DNA of 44,726 bases from Bacillota bacterium (lineage in GTDB: Bacteria > Bacillota > Sulfobacillia > JAJYWN01). The translations under genes were made by a program, and so were the position numbers. Each line of letters opens with the position of its first letter. Positions within the stretch are counted from its first letter, which is position 1. Below are positions 13,088-34,707 of the stretch, piece by piece. Location of the stretch: assembly GCA_021791495.1 (NCBI GenBank), contig JAJYWN010000057.1:1-44726 (forward strand). The letters are read 5' to 3'. The notes under the pieces were generated by a model. It saw only the letters and a list, made by a program, of their open reading frames with translations. It did not search any database and was not told the DNA's origin.

Positions 13088-13403
13088 TTGACGGGGATGA
13101 GTAGGCTGGTCAGGTAACGGCCTCCAGAGAGCCGGGACAGGTGAAAGCCGGCGCCGGAGAAGCCAGTCGAACATGGCCCCCGAGCCTTTCCGCTGAAAGC
13201 GCCGCCGGGCGGGTGAAGGCCCGCAAGAGCCCAAAAGGGGATGGTGGCAGTAGGCGGAGACGGACGGGCACCGTTATCAGCCCGGGGCATGCGGCCGAAT
13301 ACTTCCAGCCAAGTGCCTGCCAAGGCGGTCGTCGGGCCGCGAATTGGGGTGGTACCGCGGGCGTACAGCTCGTCCCCTTGCGTGGGGGCGGGCTTTTCGT
13401 TTT
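13088..13403 (+). ncRNA. T-box riboswitch (methionine-tRNA sensing) upstream of metG
   Basis: The leader begins GACGGGGATGAGTAG, the usual Stem I base. It carries the distal Stem I motifs AGAGAGCCGG and GGTGAAAGCCGGC. The specifier is probably ATG at 13173-13175 (in GAACATGGCC). The T-box sequence GGGGTGGTACCGCG is at 13346-13359; its TGGT bulge would pair with an ACCA tRNA end, which suits tRNA-Met. A terminator follows: stem 13368-13377 with 13384-13393, then a T-rich tract (13394-13403). Uncharged tRNA-Met should stabilise the antiterminator and turn metG on. Confidence 0.9.
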
Positions 13404-13446
13404 GCCCCGTGAGTCTCCCGCCTGGCTCTTTTGGGAGGTCATTGAC

Positions 13447-15516
13447 GTGGCGAGGACCAAGGAGAACGTCGGACGGAAGAAGTTCTACATTTCCACACCC
13501 ATCTACTACCCCAGCGACAATCTGCACATCGGCCACGCCTACACGACGGTGGCGGCCGACGCCATTTCCAGGTACCACCGTCTCCGTGGCGAGGATGTCT
13601 ACTTCCTGACGGGCACGGACGAACATGGGCAGAAGATCCAGCGGCGGGCCGAGGCCCGCGGACTGACGCCCAAGCAGTTCGTGGACGAGATCGTGGCGAA
13701 CATCAAGGACCTCTGGAGCAAACTGGAGGTCTCCTACGATGGGTTCATCCGTACCACGGACCCCGTCCACGAACGGGTTCTGCAGCAGATGTTCCAGAAG
13801 ATCTACGAGAAGGGCGACATCTATAAGTCCGAATACGAGGGCTGGTACTGCACGCCGTGCGAGACCTTCTGGCTGGAGCGCCAGCTGAAGGACGGCAAGT
13901 GCCCGAACCCGGAATGCGGGCGCGAGGTGGAACTGCTGCGCGAGGAAAGCTACTTCTTCAAGCTTTCCAAGTACGCCGATCGCCTCCTGAAGCACATCGA
14001 AGACCACCCGGAGTTCATCCAGCCGCCGTCCCGGCGGAACGAGATGATCGCCTTCATAAAGAGCGGTCTGGAAGACCTGTGCGTCTCGCGGACCACCTTC
14101 AACTGGGGTGTCCCGGTACCCTTCGATCCCAAGCACGTGATCTACGTGTGGTTCGACGCACTCTCGAACTACATCACGGCCATGGGCTATCTGAGCGATC
14201 CGGCGAAGTTCGAACGCTACTGGCCCGCCGATGTGCACCTGGTGGGCAAGGAGATCGTGCGTTTCCACACCATTATCTGGCCCATTATGCTCATGGCCCT
14301 GGACTTGCCCCTTCCCAAACAGGTCTTCGGCCACGGCTGGCTGGTGCTGGAGGGTGGCGAGAAGATCTCCAAGTCCAAGGGTAACGTGGTGGACCCCGTG
14401 GCGCTCATCGACAAATACGGCGTGGACGCCGTCCGCTACTATCTGCTGCGCGAGGTGCCCTTCGGCGCCGACGGGTACTACACTGAAGAGGCGCTCGTCA
14501 ACCGGACCAACGTGGACCTGGCCAACGACCTGGGCAACCTCCTTTCGCGAACCACGGCCATGATCCAGCAAAGCTTCGCCGGCGTGGTACCAGAGCCGGG
14601 CGACAGCGAACCGGTGGACCGGGAGTTCCCGGAGCTTTGCGAGCGCGCGGCCCGCGATTCGGCCGAGGCCATGGAGAAACTGCTCATTTCGGACGCGCTG
14701 TCGGCCATTTGGAAGGTGGTCGACCGGTGCAACAAGTACATCGAAGAGACCAGCCCTTGGGCCTTGGCGAAGAACCCGGCCACCCGCTCGCGGGCCGGCA
14801 CGGTCCTCTATAACCTGGCGGAGAGCCTGCGGACGCTGGGGATCCTGCTCACCCCCTATCTAACGCACACGCCGGGCCGCATCTGGGAGCAGTTGGGCCT
14901 GGACGGCGATCCGGCGGCGGCGGGCTGGACGGCCCTGCCCTGGGGCGGGCTGAAGCCGGGTACCAGGATCCGCCGGGGCAGCCCGCTCTTCCCCCGGATC
15001 GACGTGACCACGGGAGCCATCACGGCGGGGGCGGCCCGGGCGGTACAGGAGGCGACGAATAAGGTGACACCGGAAACGACCAGGCAGGCGGCGCCCGCAT
15101 CGGCCAAGGCGTCGTCGGCGGAACCCACCGCCAAGGCGGCCGTCGGCGCGGTCGGCGCAGCCGGCAGCCACAACGGCGACGGAACCCCCGCCACCATCAA
15201 CATCGACGAGTTCCGGCGGGTGGACCTGCGGGTGGCCAAGGTGCTGGAGGCCGAGAAGGTGACTGGCGCCGATAAGCTGCTGCGCCTCAGAGTCGAAGTG
15301 GGCGGAAAGGAACGGCAAGTGGTGGCGGGCGTGGCCAAGCACTACGCTCCCGAAACCCTGGTAGGCCGGTCTATCGTCATCGTGGCGAACCTTGAACCGG
15401 CTACCATTCGGGGCCTGCGGTCCGAGGGTATGATTCTCGCCGCCTCGGACGACCAGGGGCGGCTGGCCATCGTGTCCCCGGCGGAGCCGGTGGACAGCGG
15501 TGCGAAGGTGAAGTAA
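13447..15516 (+). CDS. metG: Methionyl-tRNA synthetase
   Basis: The 689-residue enzyme charges tRNA-Met. The class I signatures are HIGH (residues 27-30) and KISKSKGN (about 306-313). A zinc-binding insertion with CTPC...CPNPEC lies near residues 135-157. The C-terminus (from about 585) is an EMAP/Trbp111-like tRNA-binding domain (DLRVAKVLEAEKV...IVANLEPATIRGLRSEGMILAA). It is joined by an Ala/Thr-rich linker of about 60 residues that is longer than usual. The GTG start at 13447 follows GGGAGG (13433-13438); a longer open frame runs through the T-box and is not coding. Confidence 0.95.
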   Translation: MARTKENVGRKKFYISTPIYYPSDNLHIGHAYTTVAADAISRYHRLRGEDVYFLTGTDEHGQKIQRRAEARGLTPKQFVDEIVANIKDLWSKLEVSYDGFIRTTDPVHERVLQQMFQKIYEKGDIYKSEYEGWYCTPCETFWLERQLKDGKCPNPECGREVELLREESYFFKLSKYADRLLKHIEDHPEFIQPPSRRNEMIAFIKSGLEDLCVSRTTFNWGVPVPFDPKHVIYVWFDALSNYITAMGYLSDPAKFERYWPADVHLVGKEIVRFHTIIWPIMLMALDLPLPKQVFGHGWLVLEGGEKISKSKGNVVDPVALIDKYGVDAVRYYLLREVPFGADGYYTEEALVNRTNVDLANDLGNLLSRTTAMIQQSFAGVVPEPGDSEPVDREFPELCERAARDSAEAMEKLLISDALSAIWKVVDRCNKYIEETSPWALAKNPATRSRAGTVLYNLAESLRTLGILLTPYLTHTPGRIWEQLGLDGDPAAAGWTALPWGGLKPGTRIRRGSPLFPRIDVTTGAITAGAARAVQEATNKVTPETTRQAAPASAKASSAEPTAKAAVGAVGAAGSHNGDGTPATINIDEFRRVDLRVAKVLEAEKVTGADKLLRLRVEVGGKERQVVAGVAKHYAPETLVGRSIVIVANLEPATIRGLRSEGMILAASDDQGRLAIVSPAEPVDSGAKVK

Positions 15517-16304
15517 TGCTGGTCGACACCCATGCGCATTTGAACTCCGACCGGTACCGCGGCGACCTGGACCAAGTGATGGCCCGGGCCGCCGCGGCCG
15601 GTATTGGCCGGATGGTGGTGGTCGGGTACGATCTAGAGACCTCCCGCAAAGCCTGGGAGCTGGCCCGCCGCCACCAGGGGATCGCCGCGGCCGTCGGCAT
15701 CCACCCCCACGACGCGGCCAAGGCCGACCTGGACGCATTGCAGGAGGTGTCCCGGCTGGCATCTCTTCCGGAAACTGTGGCCGTGGGCGAGACCGGCCTG
15801 GATTTCTACCGCGACTTGTCGCCCCGCACTGAGCAAGAGCGATCTTTCCGTGTCCATCTTTCTCTGGCCGCGCGCCTCCGCAAGCCGGTGATCATCCACG
15901 ACCGGGACGCCCACGCCGACGTCCTGCGGGTGGTGCGGGCCGAAGGCGGCCTGGGCCCGGCCGGCGGGGTCATGCACTGCTTTTCGGGAGACTGGGCCTT
16001 GGCCGAAGAATGCTTGGCCCTTGGGTTTCACATTTCCATCGCCGGCCCGGTGACTTTTGATTCCGCCCGCGGCCTTCAGGAAGTGGCGCGCCGGGTTCCC
16101 CTGAACCGGCTCATGGTGGAAACGGATTGCCCGTACCTGACTCCCCAGCCTCACCGCGGGAAACGCAATGAGCCGGCCTACGTCCGGCATGTGGCGGAGA
16201 AGATCGCCGAGCTGAGGGGGATGTCTTTCCCCGAACTAGCGGCGGCCACCACCGCCAACGCCGAGGCTCTCTTCGGCCTGAAGGGCCCCACGCTCAAGAC
16301 CTAG
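15516..16304 (+). CDS. tatD: TatD-family metal-dependent hydrolase/DNase
   Basis: The 262-residue TIM-barrel hydrolase shows the family metal ligands in order: DTHAHL, GETGLDFYRD, IIHDRDAH, HCFSGD and ETDCPYLTPQPHRGKRNEP. In Bacillus the equivalent YabD follows metS, and the start here overlaps the metG stop (TAATG), so the two are coupled. The likely function is 3'-to-5' exonuclease or D-aminoacyl-type hydrolysis; substrates cannot be told from sequence. Confidence 0.92.
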   Translation: MLVDTHAHLNSDRYRGDLDQVMARAAAAGIGRMVVVGYDLETSRKAWELARRHQGIAAAVGIHPHDAAKADLDALQEVSRLASLPETVAVGETGLDFYRDLSPRTEQERSFRVHLSLAARLRKPVIIHDRDAHADVLRVVRAEGGLGPAGGVMHCFSGDWALAEECLALGFHISIAGPVTFDSARGLQEVARRVPLNRLMVETDCPYLTPQPHRGKRNEPAYVRHVAEKIAELRGMSFPELAAATTANAEALFGLKGPTLKT

Positions 16305-30186: not shown

Positions 30187-30320
30187 TACTAAGTCAGCTA
30201 CCGACCCATCCCGCCACGTGTCGACAGGTTTTCCTCTTCCCCAATTCCCAGTGGGAGGATTTGCTATTGCCTGCCGGAAGGCAGTCATCACCCAAATTCT
30301 TCCATGAGGGGGAGTCCAGT

Positions 30321-31217
30321 TTGAACATTACCGATGTCCGGATGAAGAAGGTCGGTGGCTCTGGCAAGGTTAAGGCAGTGGGGAGCATTACGGTGGGGGC
30401 GGACTTCGTAGTGCACGAGGTCAAGGTGATCCTCGGTGTGAACGGTCTCTTCGTCGCGCTTCCCTCAAAGAAAATGGCCGACGGGACCTTCAAGGACTTA
30501 GTCCATCCCATCACGGCTGAGGCGCGCGAAGCGATGCAGAAGGCAGTGCTGGAGAAGTACACCCTGGCCATGGAGGCGGGTCCCGACAGCCCGGTTACCT
30601 CATCGGCGGAAGAGGTGACAGCCACGGCCGCGCCGGCGGCCGGAACGACAGTCGGGTCAGCGGTCGCGGCTACAACGCCGGGGGCGACGAGCGTGGCCGC
30701 CGGCACGGCGACCGATGGACCCGTATCCGTCGGGCCAGCCTCCCCGCTCCCGGCCACAGCGACGTCGGCCGAGATGGCCGGTCATCCGGCGGCCCTAGCC
30801 ACCGAAGTCACCGTGCAGGCGGTGACCGGCGCGATGCAGCCCGTACCGGCCACCGCGGCCGAACCGGTGGTAGCTACTCTGGCCGCCGCCGCGGAGAACG
30901 ACGCGGGTGATGGGAACGGGGCGAGCGGAGAAGCCACTGGCGTCCATGAGGCGGCCAGATCAGCCGCTTGGTCCGGCCAGGATAGCGGGATGAAATCAAA
31001 CACCCCGATCTCGGTGTCGGCCAGCCAGAGTCAGGAAGAAGGCCTCGGGGGCCGGGACGCTGAGACGGACCACGCAGGCGGTTCCGCCTACCACAGTTAT
31101 GTACGCTACGACGGCACCTCCACCCACGATACGCGCTCCCACCACCGCCCGACCCGCAAGAATCCGCCGATAGCGGGCGCCGGCTCTGGTGAAACCGGCG
31201 GCCTCACCTCTGCGTAG
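30321..31217 (+). CDS. spoVG: SpoVG-domain protein with a long low-complexity C-terminal tail
   Basis: Residues 1 to about 88 are a clear SpoVG domain (LNITDVRMKKVGGSGKVKAV..., FVVHEVKVILGVNGLFVALPSKKM, FKDLVHPIT). SpoVG is an RNA/DNA-binding regulator of sporulation and cell division, normally about 90-100 residues. Here a further 210 or so residues rich in Ala, Thr, Val, Pro and Gly follow without a recognisable fold, ending in a His/Arg/Ser-rich segment. The TTG start at 30321 has GGGGGAG upstream. The tail is in frame through to a single stop at 31215-31217, so this is not an obvious frameshift artefact, but sequencing should be checked. Confidence 0.85.
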   Translation: MNITDVRMKKVGGSGKVKAVGSITVGADFVVHEVKVILGVNGLFVALPSKKMADGTFKDLVHPITAEAREAMQKAVLEKYTLAMEAGPDSPVTSSAEEVTATAAPAAGTTVGSAVAATTPGATSVAAGTATDGPVSVGPASPLPATATSAEMAGHPAALATEVTVQAVTGAMQPVPATAAEPVVATLAAAAENDAGDGNGASGEATGVHEAARSAAWSGQDSGMKSNTPISVSASQSQEEGLGGRDAETDHAGGSAYHSYVRYDGTSTHDTRSHHRPTRKNPPIAGAGSGETGGLTSA

Positions 31218-31293
31218 AAAGAAGAGGCCAACGGGACAAAAAGTGCCGTGACAGGACGAGGAGCGTGGGGAAGGAACCTGGAGAAGAAGAGAA

Positions 31294-31322
31294 GAGGCCC
31301 GCACCCATACGGTGCGGGCCTC
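31294..31322 (-). terminator. Terminator of the four-gene membrane cassette (also between convergent genes)
   Basis: A perfect 12-bp stem (GAGGCCCGCACC 31294-31305 with its complement 31311-31322) has a five-base loop. In the minus direction it is followed by a pyrimidine tract (TTCTCTTCTTCTC), which fits an intrinsic terminator for the cassette. It may also stop transcripts from spoVG. Confidence 0.75.
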
Positions 31323-31360
31323 CCGATGAACTTCTTACCGCCCCAATCCAAACGGAGCAG

Positions 31361-31993
31361 TTACTTCACGGCGCCAAGCCAGTTGCCGAGGAGGAACTGC
31401 AAGCGGCCGATGAACAGAGAGATACGGGCCATGACGGTCCCACCGAACGCGGCGCCGAGGCCGATCATGATGGCCCAGCGTCCGATCCAAGCGGGATAGC
31501 CGAAGACCTTGTTCTTCTCCCGGTTCACGGTGAACACAAAGTAGCAGAGGGTGCCCATCAACATCACCCAAAAGATGATGTTATTGATAGTTTGCCCGGG
31601 TGAGCCATCAACCGCAAAACGCTGGAAGCTGTTGTTGATCTGCGTGATGAAGGGGGCCGGGCTGAAGGCCAGGACGTAGCCCGAGCCATACCCCACCCAC
31701 CAAGACATCGGGAACCGCGCCAGCCACGAGAGTTTGGGGAAGAACTGGAAGTAGATCAGTAACCCGAAAAGGATCGGGAGGATCTCCCAGAACTTGCCAT
31801 CTTTGATAATGTCCTTGGTGATGGCCGGCTTGAGGTACTGGTCCCAGTCACCCGTCATGCCGAAACCGGTAGCTACGCCGACGAACAGGTGCTCGGCAAA
31901 CCGGAAGAAGGGATTCTCCTTATAGAGATAGCTGAGGATGAAGAATGTCAGGATGGCGCCGAGCCACACTCCGTAATCACTCGAGATATGCAC
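31361..31993 (-). CDS. Polytopic membrane protein of the cassette (gene D)
   Basis: This 210-residue protein has about six hydrophobic segments: near 10-25, 36-46, 60-80, 87-102, 128-146 and 160-185. A conserved-looking segment SYLYKENPFFRFAEHLFVGVATGFGMTGDWDQYL follows the first helix. I recall similar NPFxxFAEHLFVGV proteins annotated as hypothetical in several phyla, but this is unverified. The GTG start at 31993 follows GGGAGGTG; a longer frame to 32020 has no ribosome site. No catalytic motif is evident. It is the fourth and last gene of the cassette. Confidence 0.8.
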   Translation of the reverse strand: MHISSDYGVWLGAILTFFILSYLYKENPFFRFAEHLFVGVATGFGMTGDWDQYLKPAITKDIIKDGKFWEILPILFGLLIYFQFFPKLSWLARFPMSWWVGYGSGYVLAFSPAPFITQINNSFQRFAVDGSPGQTINNIIFWVMLMGTLCYFVFTVNREKNKVFGYPAWIGRWAIMIGLGAAFGGTVMARISLFIGRLQFLLGNWLGAVK

Positions 31994-32049
31994 GTTTTCA
32001 CCTCCCTGGGCAAGACCCAAAAGCGTGAAGACCTATGTGACACACGGGC

Positions 32050-32868
32050 CTATCCCTTCCGGCTCATCAGGTAACCGATGTTACCCAGGATGACCAGGAT
32101 GAGAATCATGAAGTGGCCGAGGGACTGAGCGTCCATGCCCTTCACAGCCGGACCCGGTATCTTGTTCAGCAGCTCGTACTCAGCGGCGCCGCGCATCCCG
32201 TTCAAGATGCCCTTATACTGGCCGGCCCGGACGTAAGGCATGGCGCCCGGAGCGGAAACGGCCGTAACACCAACGGAAATGGGGATCTTCTTCGCCTCAT
32301 ATATGTACTTGAGGTAATCGCTGGTCCCCGGGCTACCGGTGGACAGGTCGAAGGCGAAGGCCACGTACTTCGGGTCGAGGGCCTTCACCTGCTGCATCAG
32401 GGGAATGCTGTCGATGGCCTTGCCGTGGAAATCGGTCTTGGCGGCGTTGGCGATATTGTCCGTCAAGTTCCTGAGAACGATGACGGACTCGGGCTTCCAC
32501 CCCAGGTTCACCCAGTCGGTGCCTTCAGTCTTGTTGTACTTCTTGCCGGCATCCTCCAGGATGGTCTGCATCAGCTGGGCGCCGTCTTGCCACATGCAGT
32601 AGACAACGACCTTCAGATTCTTCTTGAAAGCCTGGGTCACCAGACCAACGGCCATCGGGCTAAGTTCAGGCGCGCTGGAGGGACCGTAGTCGCCGCCGAT
32701 CCACAAGACGTCACCGGACTTCAGAGCTCCGATGGCGTCATAGACCGTCTGGGTCTCTTCGCTAGTCTTAATCGGGAGGCCCATGGGCTTGAGGATCGGG
32801 ATCATGATGACAATCGCCATCAGAAGGTAGATCCACCGGCGGTCAATATTCTGAAGCTTTTCCCACAT
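32050..32868 (-). CDS. Double-anchored membrane protein with a soluble domain (gene C)
   Basis: The 272-residue protein has a membrane helix at each end (about 12-30 and 250-268). Between them lies a 200-residue soluble domain beginning QTVYDAIGALKSGDVLWIGGDYGPSSAPELSPMAVGL and ending near AEYELLNK. The alternating strand/helix pattern (VLWIGGDY, KVVVYCMW, ESVIVLRN, YVAFAFDL, PISVGVTA) suggests a Rossmann-like or crotonase-like alpha/beta fold, but no known catalytic motif is visible. Short conserved-looking points are GGDYGPS, PMAVGL, TAVSAPG and GAAEYE. Function unknown. Confidence 0.8.
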   Translation of the reverse strand: MWEKLQNIDRRWIYLLMAIVIMIPILKPMGLPIKTSEETQTVYDAIGALKSGDVLWIGGDYGPSSAPELSPMAVGLVTQAFKKNLKVVVYCMWQDGAQLMQTILEDAGKKYNKTEGTDWVNLGWKPESVIVLRNLTDNIANAAKTDFHGKAIDSIPLMQQVKALDPKYVAFAFDLSTGSPGTSDYLKYIYEAKKIPISVGVTAVSAPGAMPYVRAGQYKGILNGMRGAAEYELLNKIPGPAVKGMDAQSLGHFMILILVILGNIGYLMSRKG

Positions 32869-32914
32869 TCTCGATTTACACCTCCTTACACCAGGAGTGC
32901 TAATTCAGAGAGGA

Positions 32915-33547
32915 TCATTGCACGGAACCGCCCATGCCACCCAGGTGGGCACGCTCGATGCCCAAGAGGATGCGCAGGGCTGTGACAAAACCGCCGAGGT
33001 AGGCCCCGATGGCGATACCGCGCATGGACGCGGTATTCGGGATACGCATGATCCAGTTCGAGGCATCGCCAAACTTGGCCCAGATGGTTTCTCCGAGAGG
33101 AGCCTTACCGAGCATGACCAAGGCGGCGGCGATAAGCAGGACGGTGGCCTCACGCGTGCGGATCCGGAAGGCCCGGTAGGCCGCGGACGCGATGTAGAAG
33201 CACAACATGGAGAACATGGTGGCGTCCATGTTCCGGTATAAGTTGTTGTAGATCCACCGGAAGTTCTTCCCTTGATACCCTTCGATGACCCCGAGGACGA
33301 AGTACGCCCACATGGCTACCAGAAGGACGATGGAGAAGGCATACCCACTGCGGCGGCGCTGGACGTTCAGGCCGTGGATACGGGTCAGGTTGATGGCGCC
33401 GACCATCATGGCCATGACACCGACGAGAGTATCGAACTGGTCGGTATAGGTGAGGAGTTTGATGTGATCGCCCCACACCGTCCACTTGCCGACCATGGCG
33501 AGCAGGCCGCCAATGAGGGTAATGATAAGCGGAAGTTCCTTACGCAC
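32915..33547 (-). CDS. Polytopic membrane protein (gene B)
   Basis: This 210-residue protein has six predicted helices (about 5-22, 39-57, 67-88, 108-125, 130-147 and 171-192). The loop between helices 3 and 4 is IEGYQGKNFRWIYNNLYRNMDATMF. The last loop and helix, NTASMRGIAIGAYLGGFVTALRILLGIER, look conserved in style. No transporter or enzyme family is recognised. It has the same length as gene D and lies between the two anchored genes. Confidence 0.8.
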   Translation of the reverse strand: MRKELPLIITLIGGLLAMVGKWTVWGDHIKLLTYTDQFDTLVGVMAMMVGAINLTRIHGLNVQRRRSGYAFSIVLLVAMWAYFVLGVIEGYQGKNFRWIYNNLYRNMDATMFSMLCFYIASAAYRAFRIRTREATVLLIAAALVMLGKAPLGETIWAKFGDASNWIMRIPNTASMRGIAIGAYLGGFVTALRILLGIERAHLGGMGGSVQ

Positions 33548-33584
33548 TCTTACACCTCCTTATCCAGCCAGAATGGAGTATGGA

Positions 33585-34376
33585 CTACTTCTTCAAGAAC
33601 TCAGCCAGCCAGTTCTTGTCCTTCGGGCCGATGACGTTGGCGATCACCGTGCCGACGAGGACCGCGGCGATGATCAGGATCTTGTACCAGTCTTCGGCCA
33701 CCAGCGAACCGACCAGGACGGGGTTCTTGGAAATGTAGGCCGAAGCAGCGTAGATCTCCTCGCCGATAAGGGTGTAGTCACAGGCTACTACGAAGAAGGG
33801 GAGCTGAGCGGTGGAGGTCGTCCCGGAGATCTGGACGGCGCCCACTTGAGATCCGACTTCAGCCAGCGTCAGGGCCTCGGCGTAGAAGTAGCCGACCATG
33901 ATGTTGGCCGCGGGTTTCTCACGGGCGAAGATGCCGACGACGGCGGTGGTGTAACCGAACTGGGATGGGGAGAGGTACCGCACGTCGTCCGGGTTGAAAG
34001 CGTCGGGGCGACCGGCTTCAAGGTAGGATTGCTTGATGATCTCAGTATTGACGGTCATGACCAGATAGCTGCGGCAGGTGTTGATGAGTCGGCAGTCGTA
34101 CTTGGCGCACATGTTCGCCACGTGGCCCAGCACGCCCCAGAAGGCGAAGGTTTCAGCATCGGAGACACCGCCCAGACCATGGGTGGTATGGACCGGACGG
34201 CCCATTTCCGTGGCACGGCCGACGGCTTCGTCCAAGGCTTCGAGACCGGCGATCTTGTTGATGGCCGGAATCTTCATGCCCGCCCTGGCACGGGTGATGA
34301 GAACCCACACCGCGATGCAGAGAAGAATCATCGCAAGGGCGTCGACGGTGTAACCCTTGACAAAGAACGCGTTCAC
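33585..34376 (-). CDS. Double-anchored membrane protein, possibly DUF6754 family (gene A)
   Basis: The 263-residue protein is the first gene of the cassette (GTG start after AAGGAGGTG). It has an N-terminal helix (about 9-27), a central soluble domain and a C-terminal helix (about 231-250). Distinctive segments are HTTHGLGGVSDAETFAFWG, AGRPDAFNPDDVRYLSPSQFGY, EKPAANIMVGYFYAEALTLAE and GTTSTAQLPFFVVACDYTLIGEEIYAASAYIS. From memory this resembles the uncharacterised DUF6754 family. The soluble part may be an alpha/beta fold. Its overall layout mirrors gene C. Confidence 0.8.
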   Translation of the reverse strand: MNAFFVKGYTVDALAMILLCIAVWVLITRARAGMKIPAINKIAGLEALDEAVGRATEMGRPVHTTHGLGGVSDAETFAFWGVLGHVANMCAKYDCRLINTCRSYLVMTVNTEIIKQSYLEAGRPDAFNPDDVRYLSPSQFGYTTAVVGIFAREKPAANIMVGYFYAEALTLAEVGSQVGAVQISGTTSTAQLPFFVVACDYTLIGEEIYAASAYISKNPVLVGSLVAEDWYKILIIAAVLVGTVIANVIGPKDKNWLAEFLKK

Positions 34377-34707
34377 TATTCTTTCACCTCCTTACTTTTG
34401 GATTTACTACGGGACACGAATCGCACGGCAGTAATTCGTCGAATCGGAAGGAATTCCTTCATCTGGCTCTGGCCAGATGATAAGACGTGGCCCTACTTTT
34501 TTGACTTTTTCGGCATCACGCCTCCTCTCGCTTTGTCTCGCCTCCTTTCCGGAAAAGGCCTGAAACCCAACCCCTTTCCCCCTTCTGCCAGGTTCTCTCG
34601 ACCGGACAGGAAACCCCCCCTGGTTGTTGAATACACTCGCCGGACGGTAGACAAGTCTAATCCCAACCATACCCACTAAAAGATATCGCTGGAAGGGGTA
34701 ATTAAGA
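34377..34707 (-). promoter_or_regulatory. Divergent region between the membrane cassette and glmU, with a structured leader
   Basis: No gene of normal size lies here. On the minus strand, ahead of gene A, there is a 14-bp perfect palindrome (GAAGGAATTCCTTC, 34447-34460). It is joined to a 9-bp perfect hairpin (TCATCTGGC 34459-34467 with GCCAGATGA 34472-34480). A tiny frame of seven codons (MPKKSKK, 34516-34493) has a strong GAGGAGG site 4 nt upstream and may be a leader peptide. A short palindrome TAGACAAGTCTA (34648-34659) lies closer to glmU. No convincing -35/-10 pair was found for either direction. Confidence 0.45.

Follow-up and report, generated by a model that had tools for sequence, protein, structure and literature searches.

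A four-gene membrane-protein cassette between spoVG and glmU as part of a putative seven-component system found in many bacterial phyla, possibly an ATP-energised transporter

What do the four minus-strand genes that separate spoVG from glmU in a Sulfobacillia genome encode, and do they act alone? The window analyzed here is a stretch of 44,726 nucleotides, contig JAJYWN010000057.1 positions 1 to 44,726, from assembly GCA_021791495.1 (a Bacillota bacterium, hereafter the host), and on its minus strand the genes are read from A (33585..34376, 263 aa) through B (32915..33547, 210 aa) and C (32050..32868, 272 aa) to D (31361..31993, 210 aa). An earlier note, made from the sequence alone, had described them as a self-contained and mobile cassette of membrane proteins. 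The arrangement as one unit was borne out: the open reading frames were found where described, separated by gaps of 37, 46 and 56 nucleotides (nt), with an (A)GGAGGTG ribosome site upstream of every start and one terminator after D. As judged from gene order and co-occurrence in other genomes, the four genes almost certainly belong to one conserved system of seven components, F, A, B, C, D, M and E. We propose, at a probability of roughly 0.42 and from sequences and structure models, that the cassette supplies the ABCD part of a seven-protein membrane system, not described before, for ATP-energised transport.

Occurrence of the four genes in fixed order across phyla, which the earlier note had foreseen, was confirmed by a neighborhood survey. 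The A alignment, run against species genomes, gave at least 538 relatives, and 80 loci were kept. A, B, C and D followed one another in order on one strand in 73 of these; the contig end cut the cassette in five, and A stood without B, C and D downstream in two, both WOR-3-like (L060, L063). The loci were drawn from groups that include Bacillota, WOR-3/Stahlbacteria, TA06, Zixibacteria, Coatesbacteria, Poribacteria, Cloacimonadota, Gemmatimonadota, Planctomycetota including the anammox bacteria Brocadia and Scalindua, Acidobacteria-like Terriglobia, Eisenbacteria, Latescibacterota, Riflebacteria, Edwardsbacteria, Muiribacteriota and Aegiribacteria. Tandem groups of two or three cassettes were seen at several of the 80 loci, and in the Bacillota genome G311 seven complete cassettes stood head to tail (L119, L120; C1 ~2.074-2.097 Mb). 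The G311 array lies near mreB, murA and spoIID-like genes, and the six of its cassettes that were placed in the tree described below formed one lineage-specific cluster. At another locus (L081:10950-12973) C was duplicated in tandem to give A-B-C-C-D, which may represent diversification of specificity in an outward-facing subunit. Among 398 Bacillota genomes sampled, DUF6754, the family of protein A, was found in 32, spanning 12 families; it was missing from all 14 control genomes, each a well-known one, and this absence may account for the lack of studies on it. We found no publication on DUF6754, PF20539 or PF13941 in a literature search made mostly without subscription journals.

The claim that the cassette is self-contained had to be given up. 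Flanks of ABCD repeatedly carried three extra genes, F, M and E. F is a small protein of ~90-170 aa; M (~600-640 aa), encoded in the ABCD flanks or elsewhere, is an ASKHA protein from the MutL/GlmL family (PF13941); and E (~375 aa) combines a conserved central domain with a KOW-like stretch at the C-terminus and shows a weak RnfC_N-like (barrel-sandwich) match. M and/or E adjoined ABCD in 19 of 87 loci from many phyla, and in each of the Clostridia-like genomes G129, G234 and G159 a single operon, F-A-B-C-D-M-E, encodes the whole set. In the 398 Bacillota genomes, C was present in 31 of the 32 with A and in no others, and E was present in 31 genomes, 30 of them with A (Fisher exact test for A and E ~1e-41, a value that ignores relatedness among the genomes). 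The exceptions were G019, which is 78% complete, G095, where A was weak and partial, and G009, which had E only. Of 24 genomes from other phyla, 22 also encoded E; these 24 were picked as ones where F-M-E does not lie beside ABCD, apart from L077 with M nearby. The host itself carries several M and E genes, on contigs other than that of the window. ABCD is thus half of a seven-gene set, the other half of which lies elsewhere in the host and adjacent in other species; given the co-occurrence and the shared operons, the two modules are best seen as one system. These counts show that ABCD, as recognized by homology, is hardly ever found apart from the F-M-E module, and they describe an unnamed seven-component membrane system present in many phyla.

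Seven complete copies of A-B-C-D, with order kept, were found in the 4.2-Mb host assembly, and the searches led to the same seven places whether the query was the cassette DNA, DUF6754 or protein C. All seven A copies were DUF6754 (PF20539) members, and the paralogues shared 40-57% protein identity with the window copy for A and 29-48% for B to D. A tree built from 110 cassettes placed the window copy with those of the Bacillota loci L029, L030 and L031 and the other host copies mostly beside different foreign relatives, from which we conclude that the host holds several old subfamilies and not recent duplicates. Distance matrices of the subunits from the 110 cassettes were correlated (r 0.81-0.88). 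When only the seven paralogues of the host were compared, the A-C, A-D and C-D distances correlated at p 0.001-0.003, with B-C not significant. A, B, C and D have therefore mostly travelled together; by tree and distances, these comparisons show ABCD to be inherited as a block, with several diverged copies in many genomes. Genomes hold up to seven or more copies, so the system must matter to its hosts.

M matched the MutL superfamily profile PF13941 with E values of 5e-122 and 7e-125. In 11 sequences from several phyla the motifs DxGSTTTK, GxDIGGATTD and an SGG-type motif were essentially invariant, and identity across phyla was 54-68%. On these motifs M is an ATP-binding ASKHA protein; its ATPase activity is putative. 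The nearest characterized relatives of M are GlmL, which is thought to reactivate or assemble the B12-dependent glutamate mutase, and the ornithine Or-4 protein. A different reading of the system follows this kinship, in which ABCD would be a membrane enzyme that M and E together reactivate or help to assemble at the expense of ATP, the role proposed for GlmL with glutamate mutase. We consider this the main rival to transport and improbable, with about one chance in four of being right. M shares the superfamily and its ATP-binding motifs with GlmL, but three M proteins scored far below the GlmL equivalog cut-off NF040745 (222, 236 and 217 vs 475 bits) and below the TIGR01319 subfamily cut-off (150, 176 and 145 vs 204 bits), and M is longer than GlmL, with a C-terminal extension. 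By these scores M is not GlmL proper, and where GlmL is an accessory protein of a B12 enzyme, M is tied instead to a membrane complex. No mutase-like or cofactor-binding partner was recognized beside F-M-E in the loci read, and ABCD copies that outnumber the M-E units would be an uncommon arrangement if M-E were a dedicated reactivase. The host also encodes a genuine, GlmL-related Or-4 homologue of ornithine degradation, separate from M (L141:6320-7861, G000:C28), which scored 613 bits against a cut-off of 600.

E resembled the RnfC N-terminal domain (barrel-sandwich, PF13375) weakly and in its N-terminal part; of five E proteins scanned, only that of L032 exceeded the cut-off (30.3 vs 25.6 bits). 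Unlike RnfC, E adds the conserved central domain and the KOW-like end, and neither Fe-S nor flavin domains were recognized in it. A divergent M-E-like pair was noticed by eye among MacB/FtsX-type ABC transporter genes elsewhere in the host (L140:7425-10669; G000:C7:57.4-60.7 kb), which suggests that relatives of M and E may serve other membrane complexes too.

The earlier note had further held that all four cassette products are unknown membrane proteins and that A is DUF6754-like, and this stood: apart from the DUF6754 label, none has a characterized family. A is a full-length DUF6754 member (PF20539, E 8e-96, 320.5 bits against a cut-off of 27, profile positions 7-249 of 257), a label without a function that is silent on B, C and D and on the F-M-E partners. 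B, C and D gave no accepted Pfam or NCBIfam match, family alignments included, and only scattered sub-threshold matches. The CrgA, Acyl_transf_3, TMD0_ABC and DUF998 matches from Pfam were dropped as sub-threshold and varying between members, and common ancestry of A with C or of B with D was likewise set aside at profile comparison probabilities of 1% and 9%. Profiles of A, C, M and E found nothing convincing among PDB sequences. The survey also found neither a failure of the four genes to co-occur nor an assignment of each to a different characterized family, the two outcomes named beforehand as speaking against a common system. The components of the system belong to no family save for the DUF6754 label of A and the distant GlmL kinship of M.

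Both A and C carry an alpha/beta domain between two membrane helices in AlphaFold models of high confidence (predicted local distance difference test scores of 92.6 and 96.2). In A the helices span residues 10-31 and 219-248 and the domain ~42-217; B has six hydrophobic segments and D is polytopic. Family-wide positive-inside charge was used for topology. The A domain is predicted to be cytoplasmic from a net charge of +3.6 just past the first helix, the C domain extracytoplasmic from charges of +1.5 around the N-terminus and +2.1 at the C-terminus, and B a six-span protein with both ends inside.

Mean column identity was 55% for A, 43% for B, 40% for D and 39% for C, the least conserved subunit. 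Across 71 A sequences GRxTEMG (53-59) was invariant save for A55 and M58, which were nearly so, and Q139, G162, AE (166-167), E173, Q182, Q191, F195, CD (199-200), G205, E207 and Y214 were invariant as well. Conserved residues in B were R125, R176, E198 and R199. C had invariant P71, D118, D146, G224, E232 and N263, with a GAAEYE motif at 227-232, and its C-terminal membrane helix bears conserved H252 and N263. In D, N27, Q118, Y151, F152, F154, G171, G180 and G184 were invariant and E34 was found in 98% of sequences. By alignment and model the invariant residues of A sit after the C-terminal ends of beta strands, which would correspond to the usual ligand-binding edge of Rossmann-like folds. 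An enzyme served by M and E could have its active site here, in the A pocket formed by E167/Q182/Q191/C199-D200/E207 and perhaps also in C, and the position of these residues, like that of many Rossmann-like binding sites, speaks for it; the conserved C domain on the opposite side of the membrane speaks against it.

Structure comparison of the A and C models with Foldseek and VIA-align assigned no particular fold. The best PDB match of the A domain was a sirtuin (1s7g, Z 11.8 over 144 residues at 3.5 A), followed by phosphoglycerate kinase at 10.6 and many structures at ~9; the sirtuin-type GAG and NID motifs were not seen in A on inspection by eye. The C domain reached a best Z of ~9 with dozens of ties. 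Scores for sirtuin, phosphoglycerate kinase, transhydrogenase dIII, RCK and SDR folds were too close to choose among them.

Outside Bacillota, A usually begins with a signal-peptide-like N-terminus and an extension of ~100 residues before the first helix (81 of 98 copies are extended), which is compatible with a cytoplasmic A domain. The extension of L049 matched FN3 at 23.3 bits, slightly below the Pfam cut-off; only one of four proteins tested came near that cut-off, and we therefore term the extension FN3-like only. In an isolate of Ca. Syntrophosphaera two A proteins (L086:7661-10750 and 13234-16197) have N-terminal extensions of more than 700 residues. In a third reading the system would be a sensor or envelope scaffold. 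C, joined in other phyla by the FN3-like ectodomain of A, would detect or bind an external target, and A would pass the signal on to M-E inside. The predicted placement of an ectodomain on one side and a cytosolic domain on the other would suit it, as do two-component genes among the ABCD neighbors. Response regulators (4) and histidine kinases (6) were, however, barely above the controls (3 and 3), Bacillota A proteins wholly lack the ectodomain, and a sensor would not need an ATP-binding partner as tightly conserved as M. We judge a sensor or scaffold to be distinctly unlikely, and less likely than an enzyme with its reactivase.

The transport reading may be set out as follows. B and D would form the membrane core and solute path. 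The alpha/beta domain of C would capture a small nitrogen-containing solute outside, probably an amide, a cyclic amide or an acylated amino-acid derivative, and the A domain inside would provide the site at which M-E docks on the cytoplasmic face. M, working with the adaptor E and the small protein F, would hydrolyze ATP and so supply the energy or gate the passage. Different ABCD units may take different solutes and share F-M-E units, with C, the most variable subunit, setting the specificity. Topology and the contacts between partners are themselves inferred from sequences and models. That the system is a solute transporter at all we hold to be a reasonable but tentative proposal, rather short of an even chance, and its direction and substrate are speculative. 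It draws on the predicted presence of one alpha/beta domain on each side of the membrane, on the variability of C and on an excess of amidohydrolase and M20 peptidase genes among the neighbors. The further idea of a new class, in which interchangeable four-subunit units with an alpha/beta domain on each membrane face draw their energy from a GlmL-like ASKHA protein in place of an ABC or P-type ATPase, is doubtful. Genomes do hold several diverged ABCD units, often with fewer M-E units. Group II ECF transporters, whose several S components share one energising module, are comparable only in their way of working, in that variable membrane units draw on a common ATP-binding module. Unlike them, the present system has no ABC ATPase and no homology to S or T components, and M belongs to the actin/Hsp70 superfamily. 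If M does drive transport, this would be a new way of energising a membrane transporter; if it is a reactivase, the poorly understood GlmL family would be opened up beyond B12 enzymes. The one-operon version from Clostridia makes either idea testable.

Neighboring genes were compared in multi-copy Bacillota, with genes adjacent to ABCD set against other regions of the same genomes and all gene calls made in this analysis. Amidohydrolase-superfamily and M20 peptidase genes made up 12 of 131 ABCD neighbors and 4 of 200 controls (p ~0.004). An amidohydrolase gene lies 3' of D on the same strand in the host locus L012 (gap 77 nt) and in L044 (gap 21 nt), the two enzymes being 64% identical; these loci represent an orthologous cassette of one subfamily in two organisms. 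At L014 the cassette is placed between Amidohydro_3 and M20 genes, all on one strand, and neighbors seen at single loci included an amidase, a nitrilase, a creatininase, an AstE/aspartoacylase-like protein and a linear-amide hydrolase. C-N hydrolases of this kind would also suit an ABCD enzyme. At L139 and L145, F-M-E genes were noted beside DUF4438-like and M20 genes and, at L139, an asparaginase-II-like gene, of which only the L145 M20 gene was profile-checked; these neighbors agree with the amide-related genes seen near ABCD.

Several points weigh against transport. The neighbor test is modest and its loci are partly dependent (L183 and L186 are orthologous), the neighbors outside Bacillota are mostly housekeeping genes, and the window copy adjoins spoVG and glmU and no catabolic gene. 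Comparison with Pfam, NCBIfam and PDB sequences linked none of the ABCD subunits to a known permease or solute-binding protein, with no profile or sequence match to the ABC, ECF, TRAP and TTT transporter families, and the modeled domains of A and C appear to be generic Rossmann-like folds only. We know of no transporter powered by an ASKHA protein.

The location of the cassette bears on its supposed mobility. ABCD lies on the strand opposite to spoVG, beyond D, and to glmU-prs-ctc, upstream of A, and it is missing from most Bacillota; both would suit a mobile defense or accessory cassette that had inserted at this point. The two closest relatives, however, carry ABCD at the same place and in the same orientation beside glmU-prs-ctc, and spoVG flanks its opposite end, immediately in L030 and after one extra gene in L029. 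This common location points to vertical inheritance and to an old break between spoVG and glmU in the clade; the split noted earlier is real, but it is a clade-fixed arrangement and not a recent insertion. Relatives of A were not found in viral contigs or in phage or plasmid collections, none of the seven proteins A, B, C, D, M, E and F matched a PADLOC family, and the paralogues are old subfamilies common to several species. Mobility is not supported, and a mobile defense or accessory cassette is very improbable.

Of the signals around the genes, the intrinsic terminator after D (31292..31324, minus strand) is strong, with a 14-pair stem containing 10 G-C pairs and a T-rich tail; remaining terminator-like sites were at chance level (3 found vs 3.2 expected in the scan). 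The glmU-to-A intergenic region (34377..34707, minus strand) is the presumed site of the promoter and leader. A structured leader had been claimed here, and the region did fold more strongly than shuffled sequence (z -2.9). An Rfam scan of the whole window, leader included, gave no match, and the sequence of the main hairpin was missing in both closest relatives; we therefore give the leader little weight. On the other side of the cassette, the spoVG open reading frame of the window (30261-31217, plus strand) has a tail of ~200 residues rich in Ala, Thr, Val and Pro, and its counterpart in L030 is 118 aa only.

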